Origin: an uncultured Oxalobacteraceae bacterium
GTDB lineage: Bacteria; Pseudomonadota; Gammaproteobacteria; Burkholderiales; Burkholderiaceae_D
Direction of reading: 5' to 3'
DNA: 64,000 nt
Assembly (NCBI GenBank): GCA_903893945.1
Contig: CAITOF010000095.1
Location: 43,449 to 107,448 of the forward strand
Of the stretch, positions 52,411-64,000 are shown one piece after another. The notes beneath the pieces were generated by a model. It made no database searches, was not told the DNA's origin, and worked only from the letters and a program-made list of their open reading frames with translations. The position numbers were made by a program, and so were the translations under genes. Numbering within the stretch: position 1 is the stretch's first letter; each line of letters opens with the position of its first letter.

Positions 52411-54324
52411 TCAGTTTGGGGCGATTTTTACACCAGGTCCGGTTGCACCGTCAAAGCCCAGTTTTTTCAGTGCCGTCATTTCGTCCGGTACCGTCACACC
52501 TTCGGCAACCACCAGCATACCGAGATTATGCGCGATGCCGACCAAGCCTTTCAGAAACACCTGATTCCCTTCGTTATTGGCAATGTCATGAATAAAACTT
52601 GCATCCACTTTCAGGTAATCCAGTTTCAGCTCCTGCAACTGCCCGATCTGGCTGAACTGACGGCCAAAATGTTCAAGCCCGACCCGGCAGCCGGTCCCTT
52701 CCATCTGCTGGCGAAATTCCGCAAAAGCGGCGAAATGTGCATAAACGCCTGTTTCGGGAAACTCCAGCCACAGACGCCGGCTGGCTTTGGGATTGGCCAG
52801 CAGCATCGTGCGAATGTAGTCACAGAACGTGACATCAAGCAGTGAACGTGCCGAGATATTAATCGCCAGGCCGACCAGTTGCCGATTTACATTCAGCTCT
52901 TCAATTCCCAGTGTTACGGCCGCCGTGTCCAGCGTTGAGCTCATGCCCAGCCGTTCCGCTATGGGCAGAAACCGGCCGGCGGGCAGCCATTCATTGGCGT
53001 ATTTAAGCCGCAACGGACATTCATTATGAAGCAATTTCTGGTCCAGATCGGTCACCGGATAGGAGCCGAGTCGGGTTTCATGATTTTCGATTGCCTGATA
53101 AATCAGTTTCAGCCATTGCTCATTACTGCGCGGTACATCGTCATTGATCGAATTTTCGCTGTCCCTGATGCAATTTCGGTTCTGTGCTTCCGCCCCTGCC
53201 AGCGCCGCATCGACCCGGGCCATCAGATGACCGAGATTGAGTCCATAACTGAATTTTCCGGTGCCCATATAGGCAACCGGTCCGTTTTCAACAAATGCCG
53301 AGGTGGAAGCGATCATCGCGTCCAGCAAATGGTCAGACACGGGATGGGCCTCGGTCAGGGGTAACAGCACACCAAAATCAGCGCCATTTAACCGGGCAAT
53401 CAGTGCATTCGGGATGGCTTCGGTTGTTTTTTGCAAACTGGCAGACACCGCCAGCAGAAAATTATCCGTTTCATTGCGGCCCAATCGCTTATTGATGTCA
53501 GCCAGATTGGCAATCCGGATCAAAATCAGGGAACCTGAAAATGCGGTTTCCATTTCCAGTACAGCCTGCAGTTGCGCCATGAAATAATTGCGATTCGCCA
53601 GCTTGGTGAGCGGATCGGAATTGGCTTCCAGGCGCACCAGTTCGAGTCGCTTTGCTTCATCGGCAAACATTTTCTTGACCAGCAGCACCGTGGAATTCAT
53701 GGCAGACGTAAGCTGGCGCAGCTCAGGCACGTTGGATTCGGGCGTGGTTATGAAGTGGCGCTCGGTAATCGCCTGCGCCTGGGCGATGACGGCATTCAGC
53801 GGCTTTTTGATCCGGCGCAATACCAGCGTACCCAGCCAGCCACCGATCAGACTGGTAAAAAACAGGGCACCTATCAGCGCCAGCGTGGTTTCCCAGAGCG
53901 CCTTGTACGCAAACCGCGAACTGCTTATCAGCGTGATGGTACCCACCTGATTCCAGCCATTATTGATCTGCGCATGGCCCGGCTCCGAGATCAATGGCAG
54001 GCTATGCACGAACCACATGGGCGCCTCGTATATGGTTGTCGTTGCCTTTCTGGACACAATGTCCCGCCCGAGCGGGTCAACAACGCGAACCAGCTCGTAA
54101 TGACCATTGTCAAAAAGAGCGGAAACTGTCAGTTCGATTTCCATCGCATCCGCTTTGCGCTGACTCAGCGACAACGCCAGCGATGCCGCGTTATCTTCAT
54201 TCTTAATGCGTAATTGATCTTCAAGATAACTTCGGGCACTGAGCGTGGAGGCGAGCAGCCCACCGGCCAGACTCAGGACCGAGGTCAGTATGAGAGAGAG
54301 CCAGATCTGACGATACATTGACAT
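52411..54324 (-). CDS. lapD: LapD-like c-di-GMP receptor (LapD/MoxY N-terminal domain, HAMP, degenerate GGDEF and EAL)
   Basis: N-terminal TM + periplasmic domain 'MSMYRQIWLSLILTSVLSLAGGLLASTLSARSYLEDQL', HAMP-like 'RRIKKPLNAVIAQAQAI', 'RLNGADFGVLLP' in place of GGDEF, 'LLHNECPLRLKYANEWLPAGRFLPIAERLG' in the EAL region. Confidence 0.88.
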   Translation of the reverse strand: MSMYRQIWLSLILTSVLSLAGGLLASTLSARSYLEDQLRIKNEDNAASLALSLSQRKADAMEIELTVSALFDNGHYELVRVVDPLGRDIVSRKATTTIYEAPMWFVHSLPLISEPGHAQINNGWNQVGTITLISSSRFAYKALWETTLALIGALFFTSLIGGWLGTLVLRRIKKPLNAVIAQAQAITERHFITTPESNVPELRQLTSAMNSTVLLVKKMFADEAKRLELVRLEANSDPLTKLANRNYFMAQLQAVLEMETAFSGSLILIRIANLADINKRLGRNETDNFLLAVSASLQKTTEAIPNALIARLNGADFGVLLPLTEAHPVSDHLLDAMIASTSAFVENGPVAYMGTGKFSYGLNLGHLMARVDAALAGAEAQNRNCIRDSENSINDDVPRSNEQWLKLIYQAIENHETRLGSYPVTDLDQKLLHNECPLRLKYANEWLPAGRFLPIAERLGMSSTLDTAAVTLGIEELNVNRQLVGLAINISARSLLDVTFCDYIRTMLLANPKASRRLWLEFPETGVYAHFAAFAEFRQQMEGTGCRVGLEHFGRQFSQIGQLQELKLDYLKVDASFIHDIANNEGNQVFLKGLVGIAHNLGMLVVAEGVTVPDEMTALKKLGFDGATGPGVKIAPN

Positions 54325-54337
54325 TGTTTACCTCGCT

Positions 54338-55036
54338 TTAGAAACCTTCTGCATGCACACGCCGCAACAAATCGGCCCAATGAGACAACTGCCCTACCCC
54401 ACCCGGGCCGACCGCCGCCCCACCCGCGACACCCACGAATATGCCTTCACTGTTAAAACTGTATATGGGCAGCAGATCGGAACGTCTTGATGCGGTCCTG
54501 ATATCGGTGATCAGATTGTCCAGTATCAGCGGTTCCGCCTCAGGAGTCGGGTAATACGCCAGTATCATGTGCGCCTGCTGTATCGTACTTTCGGCACCAC
54601 CAATCTGCGCTTTTACATATATTAGTCGAAGTTGCTTTATAGGAACATTTAATTCCAGTAAAGTGAAATACTTGGCAACCACATAGCCTTTGCAATCACT
54701 GTGTGCTTTAAGCAACGATTCCAGTGGCGTCGCCCAATAGTCATCCTGGCCCCACACTTCCCTGTTTTCAGCAAAGGCCATGTGGCGATTAAAAAACTCG
54801 TTAACCCGTTTCAATTTCTCCGCAACCGGCAACTCCCTTGTCTGATGCAGCAGATTTTCCCATTCCGCCAGTACCTGTGCGTTTCCACCCATTTTTTTAA
54901 AAGTTGACTGGATTTGTGTCATATCCAGCGAAAACGCGACGTTAAATGTATGAAATAATAGGAACATTACCGTGGCGATGGCCAACAGTCGTTTCAGTCC
55001 CATTATGTCAAGTTGCCTTTTCATTAACCATTTCAC
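54338..55036 (-). CDS. lapG: LapG-like bacterial transglutaminase-like cysteine protease (BTLCP)
   Basis: 'WENLLHQTRELPVAEKLKRVNEFFNRHMAFAENREVWGQDDYWATPLESLLKAHSDCKGYVVAKYFTL' (Cys) and 'AHMILAYYPTPEAEPLILDNL' (His/Asp). Confidence 0.9.
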   Translation of the reverse strand: MKWLMKRQLDIMGLKRLLAIATVMFLLFHTFNVAFSLDMTQIQSTFKKMGGNAQVLAEWENLLHQTRELPVAEKLKRVNEFFNRHMAFAENREVWGQDDYWATPLESLLKAHSDCKGYVVAKYFTLLELNVPIKQLRLIYVKAQIGGAESTIQQAHMILAYYPTPEAEPLILDNLITDIRTASRRSDLLPIYSFNSEGIFVGVAGGAAVGPGGVGQLSHWADLLRRVHAEGF

Positions 55037-55218
55037 CTTCGTCCGATGACTCGACGTTAAGTTTAGTGAAGATTTATTTTATTTTTTAATTAATTTGCAC
55101 ACAGGCGGGTCACTTTGAAATTAATCTTGCGATAACTATAGTAAAGTGTGCGATTAATTCTAAGCAGACAACAGGTATCGTGTGCTTTTATAATTTAACA
55201 GAGGATTAGATTATCGTT

Positions 55219-57093
55219 ATGTGGGTCAAAAAATCATTTCTGCTTTATCTTCTCTTCCCGGTTGCTGCTTTCGCAGACATTCAGTCCATCAGGGATGCGG
55301 CGCAGGAGGCCGTGCTTTCCAATCCCGAAGTCCAGGTCAAATGGCACGCTTATCTTGCTGCCAATGACGAGCGCGACGTCGCCGCGGGCAATTACTACCC
55401 TCATCTGGATGTTCAGGCTGGTACCGGGTATGAAAAGCACAATGAACCTTTACTGGTTGACAACTATAACTCCCATTCACGCTCCGTGACATTATCGCAG
55501 ATGATTTATGACGGCTTTGCGACCAGGAATGAAGTGGGTCGTCTGGATCACAACCGTTTAGTCAAACTGTATGAACTTTACGACGTCACTGAGAACACCG
55601 TACTTGAAGTGGCCCATGCGCACCTGGATGTTTTGCGCTATCGGAAGCTGGTCGAACTGGCCGAAGAAAATTATGTTCAGCATCGAGCCCTTTATGAGCA
55701 ACTGCAGAGCAAAGCAAAAGCGGGGGTCGGCCGCCGGGTCGATCTGGAGCAGTCGGCCGGCCGTCTGGCTCTGGCAGAAGCAAATCTGTTAAGCGAAACC
55801 TCCAACCTGCATGATGTCAGCGCCCGCTACCAGCGACTGGTCGGTCAAAAGCCGGCGCAGTATCTGGACGAGCCTGCCGGCCTGGACAAGGATATCCCCC
55901 CCGAGCTTGTCAGTGCCCTGGAAATTTCGAATTCCGGTAATCCCGCCATTCTGGCCGCCATCGAGAATATTCGCGCCGCCGACAGCGATGCCTCCGGACA
56001 CCGCAGTGCGTTCCAGCCCCGTGTTGATGTTCGCCTGTCAGGGGTCAATGGAACCAATATCAACAGCGAAATTGGTGAGTCACGGGACAAGACTGCCCAG
56101 GTTGTGCTTACCTGGAATTTATTTAACGGCTTCAGTGATCGCGCCAAATTGCATCAGTTGGCCGACCAGATCAATGTATCGCGTGATTACCGTGACAAGG
56201 TATGTCGCGACCTGCGTCAAACGCTGGAAATTGCCTACAACGACAAATTTAAAATTACGGAATTACTCAAATACCTCGATCAACACCAGTTATCGACCGA
56301 AAAAGCGCGCGATGCCTACCGCCAGCAATTCGATATCGGTCAGCGTACATTGCTCGATCTGCTGGATACTGAAAACGAATTATTTGAAGCTAAACGGGCC
56401 TATATCGATGCTGAATACGATCAGCAACTGGCCTATGTGCGTGTACAGGCAGGCATGGGTAACCTGTTTCGCTCATTGGGATTATCACGACCCGATGCGG
56501 GATCACTGCCGAAGTCAAATGACGATGATCATGAAAACGCGGCAGCGAATTGCCCGGCCGACGCTCCCGACACGTACGTCGTCAATAAAGATGAGCTCAA
56601 CCAGCGTGCGCTGGCGCTGCTCAGAACCGCTGCTCCCATCACTGCACCCGGTACGACGCTCTCCAGTCCGGATTCCGGCGTGAAAAAAATGGACCAGGAA
56701 CCACAACAGACGGTGAAGCCGGCCGACAGCGACGCCAGCATGAAAGAATCGCGGAAAGCGATTGAGGCGGCACTGGAGGGCTGGCGTTCAGCGTGGGCCG
56801 CGCGCGACACCGACAAGTACCTGCAGTTTTATGCAGCTGACTTCAAGGCGTCGGTGGATGCAACGCATGAAAAATGGAACAGCCGCCGTCACCGCCTGAT
56901 CGGGGAGAAAAAACATATTGCGGTGGGCATCACCGATCTTCGGGTCACGTTCAGGGATGCGACCCATGCAACGACGATTTTTCACCAGAAATACAATAGC
57001 GACATATTTAACGACGTTGTGCTGAAAACGATGAATTGGGACTATAAAGACGGGCATTGGGTGATTGTTATGGAAATACCGGAAGCTTACTGA
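55219..57093 (+). CDS. LapE-like TolC family outer membrane protein with C-terminal NTF2-like (Cds6/SnoaL-like) domain
   Basis: TolC repeats 'MIYDGFATRNEVGRLDHN', 'WNLFNGFSDRAKLHQLADQIN', 'RQQFDIGQRTLLDLLDTENELFEAKRAYIDAEYDQQLAYVRVQAGMG'; C-terminal 'IEAALEGWRSAWAARDTDKYLQFYAADFKAS...HWVIVMEIPEAY'. Confidence 0.9.
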   Translation: MWVKKSFLLYLLFPVAAFADIQSIRDAAQEAVLSNPEVQVKWHAYLAANDERDVAAGNYYPHLDVQAGTGYEKHNEPLLVDNYNSHSRSVTLSQMIYDGFATRNEVGRLDHNRLVKLYELYDVTENTVLEVAHAHLDVLRYRKLVELAEENYVQHRALYEQLQSKAKAGVGRRVDLEQSAGRLALAEANLLSETSNLHDVSARYQRLVGQKPAQYLDEPAGLDKDIPPELVSALEISNSGNPAILAAIENIRAADSDASGHRSAFQPRVDVRLSGVNGTNINSEIGESRDKTAQVVLTWNLFNGFSDRAKLHQLADQINVSRDYRDKVCRDLRQTLEIAYNDKFKITELLKYLDQHQLSTEKARDAYRQQFDIGQRTLLDLLDTENELFEAKRAYIDAEYDQQLAYVRVQAGMGNLFRSLGLSRPDAGSLPKSNDDDHENAAANCPADAPDTYVVNKDELNQRALALLRTAAPITAPGTTLSSPDSGVKKMDQEPQQTVKPADSDASMKESRKAIEAALEGWRSAWAARDTDKYLQFYAADFKASVDATHEKWNSRRHRLIGEKKHIAVGITDLRVTFRDATHATTIFHQKYNSDIFNDVVLKTMNWDYKDGHWVIVMEIPEAY

Positions 57094-57150
57094 GCGCAAC
57101 CGGTCGCAACGTTGAACCCGTAATCTTCTTTTGGAGATGAAGTAAAAATA

Positions 57151-59382
57151 ATGACAATAAACGAGCCATCAACTCGCGGAGACGACAGCAAACCCGTGGC
57201 AGAGACGTTGAAGCAGGCCGATGTCGCCTCACCCGGGATCACCCTTGATTTATCGGAAGATCAATTGCATGTCGATCCATTACTGGATTGTCTGGTCGAA
57301 CTGACACGGATTTACGGCCGCCCGAGCACCCGTGCGGCATTGTCAGCAGGATTGCCGTTATCAAAACTGGGCCTGACACCATCACTGTTTGCGCGCGCGG
57401 CCTCTCATGCAGGATTTTCGGGGAAAGTGGTGCGACGCGGTCTGGAGCAGATCGACAATGCGCTGCTGCCGGCCATTTTGCTGTTAAAAGATAACCAGGC
57501 GTGCGTGTTGCTGAACATTGACCACACAAACGGCCAAGCAAAATTGCTGTTTCCCGAATCAGGTCAGGGGGAAGTTCCGTTGTCGATTGACGAATTGCGT
57601 GAGCGCTATATCGGCATTACGCTGTTTTCGCGCCCCCGTTTTCGGTTTGACAAGCGCACTCCGTCCGTTGTCAACTACGTTCAGAAACACTGGTTCTGGG
57701 CGGCCATTTTAGAACAGACGCCCCTTTTCAAGGATATTCTGTCCGCTGCATTTCTCATCAATATCTTTGGTGTGGCGATGCCCTTGTTTTCGATGAATGT
57801 CTACGATCGCGTCGTGCCCAACTACGCACTTGAAACGCTCTGGGTATTTGCTGCCGGCATGACGATCGTATTGGTGCTGGATTATGTCATTCGTTTATTG
57901 CGCGGCCACTTTGTGGATCTGGCCAGTGCGCGTGTCGACCTGAAACTGTCCAGCCTGATCATGGAGCGCGTACTGGGTATGCGTCTGGCGCAACGTCCAG
58001 CCTCGGTCGGCGCATTTGCTGCCAATCTGCGCTCCTTTGAAACCGTGCGGGATTTTATCGCTTCGGCCACTGTCACAACCATTATTGACCTGCCGTTTTC
58101 ACTGATTTTCCTGTTTGTCATTGCCTGGATTTCCTGGCCACTGATTTTTTTGCCGCTGGCCGGTAGCCTGCTGGTGATCATCTACGGTTACATTGTGCAG
58201 CATCGAATGCGCGAATTATCTGAAACCACGTTCCGCTCATCGGCATTACGCAATGCCACACTGGTGGAGAGCTTAACCGCCCTGGAAACCATAAAAGCCA
58301 ATGGTGCCGAAAGCCAGATGCAGGCCAAATGGGAACAGACCACCGCCTACCTGGCGCGCGTCAATGCCCAATTGCGATTGCTTTCTGCCACCACCATGAA
58401 TGGCGCGTCAGCTATTCAGCAGTTCATCAACATCGCCACCGTGGTTGCTGGCGTTTATCTGATTCACGAACGCATGCTGACCATGGGTGGATTAATCGCT
58501 GCCACCATGCTGGCAGGAAGAGCCATGGCACCGTTATCCCAGGTCGTGGGCTTGTTGCTGCAGTATGAAAATGCCAAAGTGGCGATGAAAGCGCTGGAAG
58601 GTATTATGAATACCCCCAATGAACGGACCGATGAAGCGTCGTTTGTACATCGGCCTGAAATCACCGGCAATATCGAATTCAAGGATGTGCAGTTCAATTA
58701 CCCTGACCGCGAGGAGCAGGCGTTACGCGGAATCAACCTGACAATTAAGCCCGGTGAACACGTCGCCATAATTGGTCGGGTTGGATCCGGAAAGTCGACG
58801 CTGCAGAAATTGATTCTGGGATTATATGCACCGACCAAAGGCGCGATTTTACTCGATGGCGTCGACTTGAGGCAGCTGGATCCTGCTGATCTGCGTCGCA
58901 GTGTGGGCTACGTGGCCCAGGATTCGACACTGTTTTATGGCTCACTGAGAGAAAATATTACCATTCGTGCGCCCTATGCCGATGATCGTGCCCTGGTCGC
59001 AGCAGCCGAACTGGCCGGACTGACCGAATTTGTGAACAGTCACCCGGAAGGTTTTGACATGATCGTCAGCGAACGAGGTGAATCCTTATCGGGAGGACAG
59101 CGACAGGGTATTGCCATAGCCCGCTCGGTATTGCTTGATCCGCCGATCATGTTGCTCGACGAACCGACCAGTTCCATGGATTTCATTTCCGAAACCCAGC
59201 TTAAGGATCGCATCGGACGTTTCGGACAACATAAAACCATGGTAATTGTCACCCATCGTTCCAGCCTGATGGATCTGGCCGAGCGCATCATCGTCCTGGA
59301 CAATGGTGTCATCGTCGCAGACGGCCCGAAAGAAAAAATTATTGCCGCGCTCCAGTCCGGGCAGATTGCGAGGGCATCGTGA
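57151..59382 (+). CDS. Type I secretion system permease/ATPase (LapB-like, C39-like N-domain)
   Basis: N-terminal C39-like domain, 6-TM region, Walker A 'GRVGSGKSTLQKLILGLY', signature 'LSGGQRQGIAIARSVL', Walker B 'IMLLDEPTSSMD'. Confidence 0.95.
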   Translation: MTINEPSTRGDDSKPVAETLKQADVASPGITLDLSEDQLHVDPLLDCLVELTRIYGRPSTRAALSAGLPLSKLGLTPSLFARAASHAGFSGKVVRRGLEQIDNALLPAILLLKDNQACVLLNIDHTNGQAKLLFPESGQGEVPLSIDELRERYIGITLFSRPRFRFDKRTPSVVNYVQKHWFWAAILEQTPLFKDILSAAFLINIFGVAMPLFSMNVYDRVVPNYALETLWVFAAGMTIVLVLDYVIRLLRGHFVDLASARVDLKLSSLIMERVLGMRLAQRPASVGAFAANLRSFETVRDFIASATVTTIIDLPFSLIFLFVIAWISWPLIFLPLAGSLLVIIYGYIVQHRMRELSETTFRSSALRNATLVESLTALETIKANGAESQMQAKWEQTTAYLARVNAQLRLLSATTMNGASAIQQFINIATVVAGVYLIHERMLTMGGLIAATMLAGRAMAPLSQVVGLLLQYENAKVAMKALEGIMNTPNERTDEASFVHRPEITGNIEFKDVQFNYPDREEQALRGINLTIKPGEHVAIIGRVGSGKSTLQKLILGLYAPTKGAILLDGVDLRQLDPADLRRSVGYVAQDSTLFYGSLRENITIRAPYADDRALVAAAELAGLTEFVNSHPEGFDMIVSERGESLSGGQRQGIAIARSVLLDPPIMLLDEPTSSMDFISETQLKDRIGRFGQHKTMVIVTHRSSLMDLAERIIVLDNGVIVADGPKEKIIAALQSGQIARAS

Positions 59383-60815
59383 ATGATTTAATCACCGGGT
59401 TAGTACGACGAGTGCGAAAATTCGCTGCCTGGTCAATTCGGCAGATGGAGAAAATACGCCTGCGGATTGACCCTTACCTGGCGCCGTTTCTGGATCGCTG
59501 GAATGAAAACGTCAGAAAGCCTGACAGGGATTTCATTGATGACGCGGACCGCACCATACTTGAGCAGGAACCGATACGTGCCCGTATTTTATTGCGCATG
59601 CTGCTGGCCAGCTTTATCATTTTCATTTTTTGGGCGGGTTTGGTTGATATCGATGAAATTACCCGAGGCGAAGGCAAGGTCATCCCTTCCCAGCAGTTGC
59701 AGGTATTGCAAAGTCTGGATGGCGGCATCGTGTCACAAATTCTGGTTAAAGAAGGCGACCCCGTCAATATCGGGCAGATCTTGTTGCAGGTCGACTCAAC
59801 CCGGTTTGAAGCGTCGGTGAAAGAAAACCGTTCGGAATATCTGTCCTTATCTGCCAAGGCAGCCCGTTTGCAGGCATTAAGTGAAGGCAAACCATTTAAT
59901 CCACCCGCAGACGTGGTGTCCGAAGACCCCACCACGGTGGCCCAGGAACGGCAGCTTTATCTGTCAGCCAATAACGAAATGCAAACGCAGATATCCATTG
60001 CGCGCCAGGAGTTAGAGCAGCGGCAACAGGAATTATCGGAAACGATCTCCAAGCAGAATCAGAGTGCCCAGGCCTATGAATCGTCCCTGAAAGAATTAAC
60101 CGTGACCAAACCACTGCTGAATTCGGGTGCGGTATCGGAAATGGAATTATTACGGTTGCAGCGCGACGTGGACAAATATCGGAGCGAACGTGACATCGCC
60201 AGTGCCCAGATTTCCCGGGTGCGTGCCGCTGTCAGCGAGGCCAACCATAAAATTCAGGAGGTCGAGCTAACCTTCCGAAATACAGCCAGCAAGGAATTTT
60301 CTGAAACCATGGCAAAGTTGAACTCGCTGACCCAGACCAGTGCCGGGCTCAGTGACAAGGTGAAACAGTCGACCATACGCTCGCCGGTACGTGGCACGGT
60401 TAAACGCTTATTGGTGAATACCGTCGGTGGTGTCGTTCAGCCAGGACGCGACATCGTCGAAATTGTGCCGCTGGAAGGAAAACTGATACTCGAGGCAAAA
60501 GTACTGCCGCGTGACATTGCCTTCTTAAGTCAGGGGCAAAAAGCCATGGTTAAGTTTACCGCGTACGATTTTTCGATCTATGGCGGGTTGGACGCGACGG
60601 TCGATTTGATCGGTGCCGATTCTGTCACCGATGAACGGGGAAATACGTTCTATACGGTGCGCGTCAGCACCACCAGAGCGAATTTTTCGAAGAATCTGCC
60701 TATTATTCCGGGGATGGTCGCCGAAGTCGATATAATTACCGGCCGTAAAAGCATACTTTCTTACCTGTTAAAACCGGTATTACGGGCAAAACAGGCAGCC
60801 ATGACCGAACGCTAG
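59379..60815 (+). CDS. HlyD family T1SS membrane fusion protein (LapC-like)
   Basis: Single N-terminal TM, 'GEGKVIPSQQLQVLQSLDGGIVSQILVKEGDPVNIGQILLQVDSTRFEASVKENRSEYL', 'IRSPVRGTVKRLLVNTVGGVVQPG'; overlaps the ATPase gene by 4 nt. Confidence 0.95.
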   Translation: MNDLITGLVRRVRKFAAWSIRQMEKIRLRIDPYLAPFLDRWNENVRKPDRDFIDDADRTILEQEPIRARILLRMLLASFIIFIFWAGLVDIDEITRGEGKVIPSQQLQVLQSLDGGIVSQILVKEGDPVNIGQILLQVDSTRFEASVKENRSEYLSLSAKAARLQALSEGKPFNPPADVVSEDPTTVAQERQLYLSANNEMQTQISIARQELEQRQQELSETISKQNQSAQAYESSLKELTVTKPLLNSGAVSEMELLRLQRDVDKYRSERDIASAQISRVRAAVSEANHKIQEVELTFRNTASKEFSETMAKLNSLTQTSAGLSDKVKQSTIRSPVRGTVKRLLVNTVGGVVQPGRDIVEIVPLEGKLILEAKVLPRDIAFLSQGQKAMVKFTAYDFSIYGGLDATVDLIGADSVTDERGNTFYTVRVSTTRANFSKNLPIIPGMVAEVDIITGRKSILSYLLKPVLRAKQAAMTER

Positions 60816-60862
60816 CACAGGTTCATCCAGGTAATTATTGTTTAAAGCAGATTCAGACTATC

Positions 60863-61474
60863 GTGGCGATAAAAAAACATTTATTCATTGCACCCACTGG
60901 CCAGTTGCTGCCTCGCTGGAAAGAAGCATTCCCCAAAGCCGTTGGCGCTTCGGTCAGTCAACTTCCCTCGTCGAATTCGTTTGATTTTATCTGGTTAAGG
61001 CTGCAACCCGGCGTGGCGGTGGAGCTGCAGATAAATCAGCTCCAGTCTTTTATCGGACGATCTGCACTACTGATCTTAAGTGACATCCCCGATGATAATG
61101 AAGGTTTGCTTGCCTTTTCGGCTGCTGCCAAAGGCTATGGAAACTCTCATGCAACAGCGGAACTATTAAGACAGATGGCCAGGGTCGTGGAACAGGGTGG
61201 CTTATGGATTGGTGAGTCACTCATGCAGCGATTATTGGTGGGTGTAAGCAATCTGCCCCAACCCGTCGCCAAAGTAACCGGCCAGGTCTACAAGCTGACC
61301 TCGAGAGAGCTTGAAGTGGCCAAGGCGGTCGCCGCCGGTGCCAGCAACAAGGACATTGCACGCCAGCTAACGATTACCGAGCGCACTGTCAAAGCGCATA
61401 TCAGTGGTTTATTTGGCAAGTTAGGCGTAAGTGATCGCTTGCAACTGGCGCTTAAAATGCGCGACATGTCCTGA
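60863..61474 (+). CDS. LuxR-type HTH transcriptional regulator with atypical receiver-like N-domain
   Basis: C-terminal 'LTSRELEVAKAVAAGASNKDIARQLTITERTVKAHISGLFGKLGVSDRLQLALKM'; GTG start. Confidence 0.88.
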   Translation: MAIKKHLFIAPTGQLLPRWKEAFPKAVGASVSQLPSSNSFDFIWLRLQPGVAVELQINQLQSFIGRSALLILSDIPDDNEGLLAFSAAAKGYGNSHATAELLRQMARVVEQGGLWIGESLMQRLLVGVSNLPQPVAKVTGQVYKLTSRELEVAKAVAAGASNKDIARQLTITERTVKAHISGLFGKLGVSDRLQLALKMRDMS

Positions 61475-61607
61475 CTGAATCTCCATAATTGTCTTTTTAC
61501 TTATATTTTATCGCCGTTGCCGCAACACTGTACTTCGGTACAATACCGCGACCCTGACGCTCCTGTTAAAGTGTTTCCATATATAAATATTTATTTAGGG
61601 AAATATC

Positions 61608-64000
61608 ATGGCAAATTCAGGCGCAATCATCGGGAAAGTCGCTGTTCTGCAGGGGCAGGCTTTTGCCCAGCATCCGGACGGAACACGGGTTGAGTTGAAA
61701 ATTGGCGATCCTGTCCGTGAAGGCGATGTCCTTATCACCGGCCCTGGCGCTGTCGTCGAACTTGGCTTCAACGACGGACATACCTATGTGTTGCATCAGA
61801 GTGAAACACTCACGGTCGATGGCTCATTTTTCAATACCACCCCGATTGACGCCCATACCGCTGCATTGAGCGCGCAAAGCGGGCAACTTGATGCACTCAA
61901 TTCTGTAATCGCTTCCGGGGGAAGTCTGGACCAGTTGTTTGAGTCCGCAGCAGCCGGTTTCAGCGGTGGCGGTGATGCCAACAGCGGGCATACATTCGTT
62001 GAATTATTGCGTATTGTTGAAACCGTTACACCTGGGTCGTTCTCCGTAGCGGGGGGTACAAATTTATCGCCTACCTTCACCCCATCAGGTACAGCCACTC
62101 CTGACAACGTGCCCGGACCTGTCGGCACTACAACTGGCCCTGATACGACCGGATCCGATACCACAGGTACCACGACGTCAGGCGGCAGCACGACCGGCGG
62201 AAATACCAACGGTGTTAATCCGCCAGCGATCACTCCCCCATCGATCACCATTGACCCTATACCACTTATTAATGGTGCAATCGGAAGCAACGCAACACCG
62301 GTCAGCATCACCGGAACTGTCAGCGCAAATGTTCCAGTCGGCGATACCGTGACACTGATTATAGATGGCCACTCCTACACCGGCACTGTCTCGCATGGCG
62401 GCACTTACGTTGTTGAGGTTCCTGGAAACATCCTCGCTTCAGCAAATACAGATGCGATTACTGCAACCGTGTCGATTCCAGGTTCGTCAGGCAGTCCGCT
62501 TTCCTCATCGACGGTTCAGTCCTACAATGTTGAACTTGCGGCACCCCCTATCAGCGTGTCGATCAATTCTATCGCCACCGTAAATGGCGCTGAAGCCGCG
62601 AGCAGTAACCCGATTGCCGTCACCGGTGCGGTGTCCAGTAACGTGCCGGTGGGCACACTCGTCACCTTGACGGTTGACGGTCACAACTATACAGGTACGG
62701 TGCAATCTGGCGGCACTTACTCGATTGGCATACCCGGAAATATTCTGGCCAGTGCATCGGCCGATTCGATACACGCAACGGTTTCCACTGTCGATGCAGC
62801 CGGCAATACCGCCAATGCATCGGCCGACCAGGTCTACACAGTGAATGTAAATGCGCCAGCCATCGCGATATCGATCGATGCGCTTCCAGCCGTGAATGGA
62901 GCAGAGGCGGCCAGTCCAAACCCTGTGAGCGTCAGCGGCACGGTCTCCAGCAATATTCCTGTTGGTGATTTGGTCACCATTACAGTCGACGGACACAGCT
63001 ACACCGGCGCTGTGCAGGCCGGTGGCACGTATTCCATCGGTGTTCCCGGCAATGTGCTTGCGACAGCAAGTACTGATTCGATTCATGCAACGGTGTCAAT
63101 GACCGATGCCGCGGGTAATACCGCTACAGCAACCGCGGACCAGCCCTATTCTGTCGAACTGACTGCCGCACCGATTACGGTGGGTATCAACGCCATTCCT
63201 ACCGTCAATGGTGCCGAAGCGGCCAGCAGCAATCCGATTACGGTATCCGGTACCGTATCGTCGAATGTACCGGTTGGTGACACCGTTACATTGAGTGTTG
63301 GTGGCAATACCTACGTGGCAACGGTACAAGCCGGTGGTACATATTCCGTCGGTGTTCCGGGCAATGTCCTGGCCAATGCACCCGTCGATTCGATTCATGC
63401 AACGGTGTCAATGACCGACGCCGCGGGTAATACCGCTACAGCAACCGCGGACCAGCCCTATTCTGTCGAACTGACTGCCGCACCGATTACGGTCGGCATC
63501 AACGCCATTCCTACCGTCAATGGCGCTGAAGCGGCCAGCAGCAATCCGATTACCGTATCCGGTACCGTATCGTCGAATGTACCGGTTGGTGATACCGTTA
63601 CTTTAACAGTTGGTGGTCATACCTATACCGCAACTGTTTTATCCGGTGGTACATATTCCGTCGGTGTTCCGGGCAATGTCCTGGCCAATGCACCGGTCGA
63701 TTCGATTCATGCAACCGTGTCGATGACCGATGCGGCGGGTAATACCGCTACAGCAACCGCTGACCAACCCTATTCTGTGGAACTGACTGCCGCACCGATT
63801 ACGGTGGGTATCAACGCTATTCCTACCGTCAATGGTGCTGAAGCGGCCAGCAGCAATCCGATTACCGTATCCGGTACCGTATCGTCGAATGTGCCAGTCG
63901 GTGACACCGTTACTTTAACAGTTGGTGGTCATACCTATACGGCGACTGTTTTATCCGGTGGTACTTACTCTGTCGGTGTTCCGGGCAATGTCCTGGCCAA
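61608..64000 (+). CDS. LapA-like giant repetitive adhesin with N-terminal retention module (3' end outside window; not in ORF track)
   Basis: Hand translation MANSGAIIGKVAVLQGQAFAQHPDGTRVELKIGDPVREGDVLITGPGAVVELGFNDGHTYVLHQSETLTVDG...SLDQLFESAAAGFSGGGDANSGHTFVELLRIVETVTP, then Ig-like repeats; no stop seen to 64000. Confidence 0.92.
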   Translation, partial: MANSGAIIGKVAVLQGQAFAQHPDGTRVELKIGDPVREGDVLITGPGAVVELGFNDGHTYVLHQSETLTVDGSFFNTTPIDAHTAALSAQSGQLDALNSVIASGGSLDQLFESAAAGFSGGGDANSGHTFVELLRIVETVTPGSFSVAGGTNLSPTFTPSGTATPDNVPGPVGTTTGPDTTGSDTTGTTTSGGSTTGGNTNGVNPPAITPPSITIDPIPLINGAIGSNATPVSITGTVSANVPVGDTVTLIIDGHSYTGTVSHGGTYVVEVPGNILASANTDAITATVSIPGSSGSPLSSSTVQSYNVELAAPPISVSINSIATVNGAEAASSNPIAVTGAVSSNVPVGTLVTLTVDGHNYTGTVQSGGTYSIGIPGNILASASADSIHATVSTVDAAGNTANASADQVYTVNVNAPAIAISIDALPAVNGAEAASPNPVSVSGTVSSNIPVGDLVTITVDGHSYTGAVQAGGTYSIGVPGNVLATASTDSIHATVSMTDAAGNTATATADQPYSVELTAAPITVGINAIPTVNGAEAASSNPITVSGTVSSNVPVGDTVTLSVGGNTYVATVQAGGTYSVGVPGNVLANAPVDSIHATVSMTDAAGNTATATADQPYSVELTAAPITVGINAIPTVNGAEAASSNPITVSGTVSSNVPVGDTVTLTVGGHTYTATVLSGGTYSVGVPGNVLANAPVDSIHATVSMTDAAGNTATATADQPYSVELTAAPITVGINAIPTVNGAEAASSNPITVSGTVSSNVPVGDTVTLTVGGHTYTATVLSGGTYSVGVPGNVLA
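62235..64000 (+). repeat. 312-bp (104-aa) tandem repeats, five full units plus a partial sixth
   Basis: Unit starts at 62235, 62547, 62859, 63171, 63483, 63795; unit consensus PITVGINAIPTVNGAEAASSNPITVSGTVSSNVPVGDTVTLTVGGHTYTATV..GGTYSVGVPGNVLANAPVDSIHATVSMTDAAGNTATATADQPYSVELTA. Confidence 0.95.

Follow-up and report, generated by a model that had tools for sequence, protein, structure and literature searches.

The window analyzed here is a 64,000-nucleotide stretch of contig CAITOF010000095.1, from the draft genome (125 contigs) of an uncultured Oxalobacteraceae bacterium (GenBank assembly GCA_903893945.1). From position 52,411 to its end, the window carries a Lap-type adhesin locus: a receptor for cyclic dimeric guanosine monophosphate (c-di-GMP), the protease LapG, a type I secretion system (T1SS), a regulator, and a giant adhesin. 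Lap systems are known and the layout of this one is ordinary; what is new is a variant calcium site in LapG. The genes and features are listed below, with the supporting matches in parentheses.

52411..54324, minus strand: lapD, inner-membrane c-di-GMP receptor (LapD_MoxY_N, 5.5e-35; GGDEF, 9.6e-18; EAL, 3.9e-43; sequence matches to PDB entries 3pjw/3pjv/4u64)
54338..55036, minus strand: lapG, periplasmic bacterial transglutaminase-like cysteine proteinase (BTLCP, family C93) (Peptidase_C93, 1.3e-10; NCBIfam LapG NF045674, 3e-63; PDB entries 4u65/4fgo by sequence)
54686..54697, minus strand: LapG D114-C115-K116-G117, in place of D134-C135-E136-D137 (alignments; the DNA reads GATTGCAAAGGC)
54764..54766, minus strand: codon for LapG Asn91, which corresponds to Asp111 of Pseudomonas fluorescens LapG, a ligand of the second calcium (alignments; ligand role from PMC4359373)
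55037..55218, no strand: 182-bp gap between the divergently transcribed lapG and TolC-like genes (two sigma-70-like consensus matches on the plus strand, predicted only)
55219..57093, plus strand: lapE-like TolC-family outer-membrane protein with a C-terminal NTF2-like (Cds6_C) domain (TIGR01844, 1.1e-74; PF24125, 1.7e-17)
57151..59382, plus strand: lapB-like T1SS ABC transporter of the LssB type (TIGR03375, 1.5e-293)
59379..60815, plus strand: lapC-like HlyD periplasmic adaptor (TIGR01843, 3.7e-119)
60863..61474, plus strand: LuxR/GerE DNA-binding regulator (PF00196, 4.5e-18)
61608..64000, plus strand: giant adhesin, N-terminal 797 amino acids only (retention_LapA NF033682, 1.4e-22, then Ig_like_ice repeats, NF012196, 1.6e-88)
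61947..61958, plus strand: candidate LapG cleavage site AAAG, adhesin residues 114-117, within ESAAAGFSGGG (sequence read and compared with related adhesins)

A sequence-only reading of this DNA had described a c-di-GMP-gated Lap locus. Using open reading frames and Pfam and NCBIfam searches of the window, we located every component that it named (LapD, LapG, the TolC-like protein, the ABC transporter, HlyD, the LuxR regulator, and the retention-module adhesin). The hidden Markov model searches that it proposed all matched (C93, LapD_MoxY_N, and the retention module), and the divergent gap at 55037-55218, which it put at about 180 bp, measures 182 bp.

The window's LapD has a degenerate GGDEF motif (NGADF), a degenerate EAL motif (ECP), and a GWNQ loop; the tryptophan of this GWxQ loop is conserved in 95 of 95 LapDs. 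By alignment, it keeps the equivalents of E617 and of R450, which we take to be a c-di-GMP-binding residue. In P. fluorescens LapD, the E617A substitution severely reduces c-di-GMP binding and abolishes the inhibition of LapG (PMC3032545). Given the degenerate enzymatic motifs and the retained GWxQ, R450, and E617 equivalents, the window's LapD appears to be a c-di-GMP receptor rather than an enzyme. Pfam did not detect a HAMP domain in this protein, and no further search was aimed at HAMP.

The adhesin has a retention module (NF033682) and a site of the form [T/A/P]AAG, and all three parts of a dedicated T1SS are encoded beside it. Because the window ends where the contig ends, the adhesin is cut at 797 amino acids, and its C-terminal T1SS signal would lie beyond the visible part. 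The T1SS C-terminal model TIGR03661 has no match anywhere in the draft assembly, which also contains no further Ig_like_ice repeats outside the adhesin's contig. These features of LapD and the adhesin, along with the triad and fold of LapG, fit the c-di-GMP-gated reading. The contig break aside, the locus appears to be a complete Lap switch, if its steps are as expected from homology.

We numbered LapG positions as in P. fluorescens LapG by anchoring the alignments on Cys135, which we take to be the catalytic cysteine. This anchoring reproduces the D111 of PMC4359373. Where the family reads D-C-E-D (positions 134-137), the window's LapG reads D-C-K-G, and it has asparagine instead of aspartate at position 111. 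In other words, at the four calcium-site positions D111, D134, E136, and D137, the window's protein has N, D, K, and G. In P. fluorescens LapG, the second calcium has D111 among its ligands (PMC4359373). The counterpart of D137 in Legionella pneumophila LapG, D139, also ligates calcium (PMC4866520). In Desulfovibrio vulgaris DvhG, the D316A/E318A double mutant, altered at the counterparts of D134 and E136, has no activity, and the site has been called strictly conserved (PMC13090378). Given the loss of these ligands, the calcium-dependent paradigm from P. fluorescens is not simply transferable.

The BTLCP fold and the Cys-His-Asp triad are present in the window's LapG, as judged from the alignment and from a structure model. 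The mean predicted local distance difference test (pLDDT) score of the model is 92.7, rising to ~97 in the region of the active site. Compared with P. fluorescens LapG (4u65), the model gives a template modeling (TM) score of 0.89, normalized to the target. The protein scores 213 bits against NF045674, which is under the equivalog cut-off of 320, although this shortfall may reflect only a cut-off centered on Pseudomonas. Among 98 canonical LapGs, D119, D134, C135, E136, and D137 are conserved at 100% and D111 at 99%. In the first five variants that we found (from the window, genomes G042 and G037, Andreprevotia chitinilytica, and locus L104), the only changes in the 100%-conserved columns were at D119, E136, and D137; the catalytic Cys, His, and Asp and all other invariant columns were intact. 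Since the changes are limited to the calcium and catalytic-loop region, they do not reflect general decay. The window's LapG still has both D134 and D119.

To place this variant among its relatives, we used a wider set of LapG sequences (225 distinct ones, including a few fragments). Most of them have D111 and DCED. N111 is found in 16 of the 225, always with K136 and with either G137 or S137, and never without K136. The carriers are the window, A. chitinilytica DSM 18519, all 10 of the g118 species, and two species each from g103 and g336. (The last three groups are genera of one other family in the same order.) A. lacus, which is a congener of A. chitinilytica, reads DCED. E136 has also been lost in other ways: to valine (G042, G037, and L104), to glutamine (G850), and to lysine with D111 kept (G832). 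In a tree built without the motif columns, well-supported branches force at least four origins of K136. All three of the N111 gains are on branches where K136 also arose. Such branches account for 1.3% of the tree length; by branch length, the probability of this by chance is ~2e-6, which is a rough figure because the events are few and it was estimated after the pattern was seen. A formal pairwise sign test on the tree had four pairs, which are too few to reach significance.

DCKG is not the normal form of distant C93 relatives: among 30 such proteins sampled from other parts of the phylum, the motif is DCED in 28 and DCEE in one, and the remaining one (L238) could not be read by the motif scan. 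We set aside another match with K136, from G1209 in another gammaproteobacterial family (L307:8426-8979; DCKD, with D111 kept). It is split between two frames, has no lapD within the 18 kb that was read, and is probably a pseudogene.

The catalytic cysteine itself is missing from four of the 225 LapGs, two of which also lack E136. These four are encoded next to lapD and read DSVD, DSED, DGAD, and DAED (L198/L230, L202/L231, and L194/L232 from genus g105; L205/L233 from G490). In the three LapDs from g105, GWxP replaces GWxQ. It is possible, from these motifs, that the g105 and G490 loci are pseudoprotease Lap systems.

Several observations bear on whether the variant LapG is functional. The ratio of nonsynonymous to synonymous substitution rates (dN/dS) for lapG is 0.016-0.12 over ten pairs from five K136 species of g118, so this form of LapG is kept by purifying selection. 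No second lapG that might provide calcium-dependent activity was found in the genomes of the window, G042, G037, A. chitinilytica, or L104, each of which has a single C93 gene. All 14 of the variant and control genomes that we searched encode a retention-module adhesin. Where the xAAG sites could be read, they are ESAAAGF in the window, ESAAAGL in A. chitinilytica, DSAAAGL or DPAAAGL in g118, QSAAAGL in G828, APAAGL in G037, APAAGA in L104, and GVAAGF in G042; G848 and G850, whose sites were not recovered, are left out of this comparison.

Some of the variant LapGs are accompanied by altered LapDs. In g118 (L222-L226), G828 (from g103; L308), and G848 (from g336; L309), E617 is replaced by lysine and R450 by phenylalanine or tyrosine. 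Despite these replacements, the g118 LapDs keep GWxQ. In the sister genus g70, whose LapG reads DCED, LapD keeps the equivalents of both residues. The LapDs of the window and of A. chitinilytica also keep both, so the loss of the calcium site from LapG does not require the loss of c-di-GMP binding. The replacements suggest that the switch in g118, G828, and G848 is uncoupled from c-di-GMP, and in their family, both the calcium and the c-di-GMP inputs may be gone. Separately, R450 is replaced by glutamate in the LapDs of L063, L069, L108, and L118 (L069 also has glycine at E617), and E617 is replaced by valine in those of L068, L087, L096, L115, and L121.

Our preferred explanation, which we hold with moderate confidence, is that the window encodes a Lap switch with a calcium-independent LapG, in which a lysine stands in for the metal. 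As in other Lap systems, the T1SS would secrete the retention-module adhesin, which would remain as a plug in the TolC-like pore. While c-di-GMP is bound to it, LapD would sequester LapG. When c-di-GMP falls, LapG would be freed and would cut the adhesin at AAAG, which would release the cell. We infer that the amine of Lys136 sits where the cation would be, next to the acids that are still present (D134 and D119), and that it keeps the loop of the catalytic cysteine in an active conformation. If so, then release of the adhesin would depend on c-di-GMP and no longer on periplasmic calcium. Judging from its sequence, the window's LapG most likely works without calcium, in which it would differ from the characterized LapGs. 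A broader proposal is that metal-free forms of LapG have arisen several times, with the calcium replaced by lysine along with the changes of Asp111 to Asn and of Asp137 to Gly or Ser; in some lineages, LapD would also have lost its c-di-GMP residues, so that the inputs were rewired and the output was kept. We consider this proposal about as probable as not.

Four observations weigh against a calcium-independent protease. First, alanine at the equivalents of D134 and E136 kills DvhG, so the loss of ligands could mean the loss of function. Second, lysine is not the sole outcome at position 136, as other lineages have valine or glutamine. Third, the E617 and R450 equivalents of LapD were also lost in the g118 and g103/g336 species that were checked, which may mean that the switch as a whole is changing in those lineages. 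Fourth, the window's lapG is near synonymous saturation when compared to its neighbors, and the clean dN/dS values are from g118.

The main rival is that the variant LapG is a pseudoprotease: it would not cut, but would be kept because it binds LapD or the adhesin, and the adhesin would stay on the surface or leave by another route. The requirement of DvhG and the characterized LapGs for the calcium site (PMC13090378) is consistent with this idea, and the Cys-less LapGs beside lapD show that pseudo-LapGs do occur elsewhere in the order. But the variants retain the catalytic triad and every other invariant column, the K136 species show strong purifying selection, and the adhesins that could be read have kept their xAAG sites. 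Also, simple decay would not be expected to reach the same set of asparagine, lysine, and glycine or serine over and over. We consider a pseudoprotease to be unlikely, although it is the alternative that we take most seriously.

Another alternative is that LapG still binds calcium or another metal, via D134, D119, the backbone, or other side chains, and that the substitutions tune the calcium threshold. D134 and D119 are both available for this in the window's protein, and the occupancy of the site is already variable, with one calcium in L. pneumophila LapG and two in P. fluorescens LapG (PMC4359373). However, three residues that are documented as ligands or as required are gone together, a positive charge has been introduced, and lysine is found at position 136 in at least four lineages. 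A retuned site therefore seems doubtful to us, and we rank it just after the pseudoprotease.

The sequence-only reading had looked for novelty in the arrangement, with its inserted regulator and modified outer-membrane component. To compare arrangements, we scanned named bacterial genomes with the LapG alignment and obtained 80 related loci, mostly from betaproteobacteria; removing a duplicate (L042) left 79. In 68 of these, tolC adjoins lapG, and the two genes are divergent in 63 of the 68. The NTF2-like tail is present on 44 of 69 tolC genes, and a LuxR gene lies between hlyD and the adhesin gene in 9 of the 10 loci with both of these in view. The inserted LuxR and the modified TolC are real, but because all of these features are common in relatives, this is the normal betaproteobacterial layout, and it is very improbable that the arrangement is what sets the locus apart. 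So the Lap switch stands, the special arrangement does not, and the real departure, the loss of calcium ligands from LapG, had been overlooked. As for the neighboring genes, the ABC transporter has an N-terminal C39-like domain that scores slightly under the Pfam cut-off (PF03412, 21.3 bits versus 22). Pfam detected no receiver domain in the LuxR/GerE regulator, which has weak NarL-like similarity ahead of its GerE domain. A literature search for a LuxR-type gene between hlyD and the adhesin found nothing.

Least credible of all is that DCKG comes from faulty sequencing or assembly, or from a pseudogene in decay, as might be suspected in a draft of 125 contigs: the open frame of lapG is intact, and N111, K136, and G/S137 are also found in the genome of an isolate (A. 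chitinilytica) and in those of 10 different g118 species, some of them assembled as single contigs, which refutes this as a general explanation.

From Pseudomonas to Desulfovibrio, LapG has been regarded as invariably calcium dependent and its site as strictly conserved. A literature search for calcium-independent LapG found nothing beyond a review of two-partner secretion. If our interpretation is correct, then this recurrent natural loss, with the triad and the substrate site kept, would uncouple the function of calcium from catalysis. It would also provide biochemists with a LapG that resists the chelator EGTA (ethylene glycol tetraacetic acid), and calcium sensing would be an optional input to the Lap switch, which some lineages have discarded.

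Among the known systems, the LapA-LapB-LapC-LapE-LapD-LapG system of P. fluorescens Pf0-1 has a component set identical to the window's. LapG and LapD are orthologous by sequence, and LapG also by the fold of its model. Both systems have a retention module with an AAG site and a LapD with the GWxQ loop and the E617 equivalent. In contrast, the calcium-dependent LapG of P. fluorescens carries D111/D134/E136/D137, where the window's LapG has N/D/K/G; and only the window has the NTF2-like tail on TolC and the LuxR gene ahead of the adhesin.

The BrtA-LapG-LapD system of Bordetella bronchiseptica is likewise betaproteobacterial and has adjacent lapG and lapD, but the calcium residues of its LapG are intact, and this LapG requires calcium to cleave BrtA (PMC4933386). 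In its published layout, brtA, lapG, and lapD are consecutive. In D. vulgaris, a C93 protease (DvhG) likewise releases retention-module adhesins under the control of c-di-GMP. DvhG is anchored to the membrane, has kept its calcium site, and depends on calcium; its partner DvhD is an HD-GYP receptor instead of a LapD (PMC13090378).

The closest parallels to the window's LapG are the N111/K136 proteins of A. chitinilytica, g118, g103, and g336, which share its calcium-site substitutions and have intact triads but are of independent origin. In the g118 and g103/g336 species that were checked, LapD lacks the equivalents of E617 and R450, unlike the LapD of the window.

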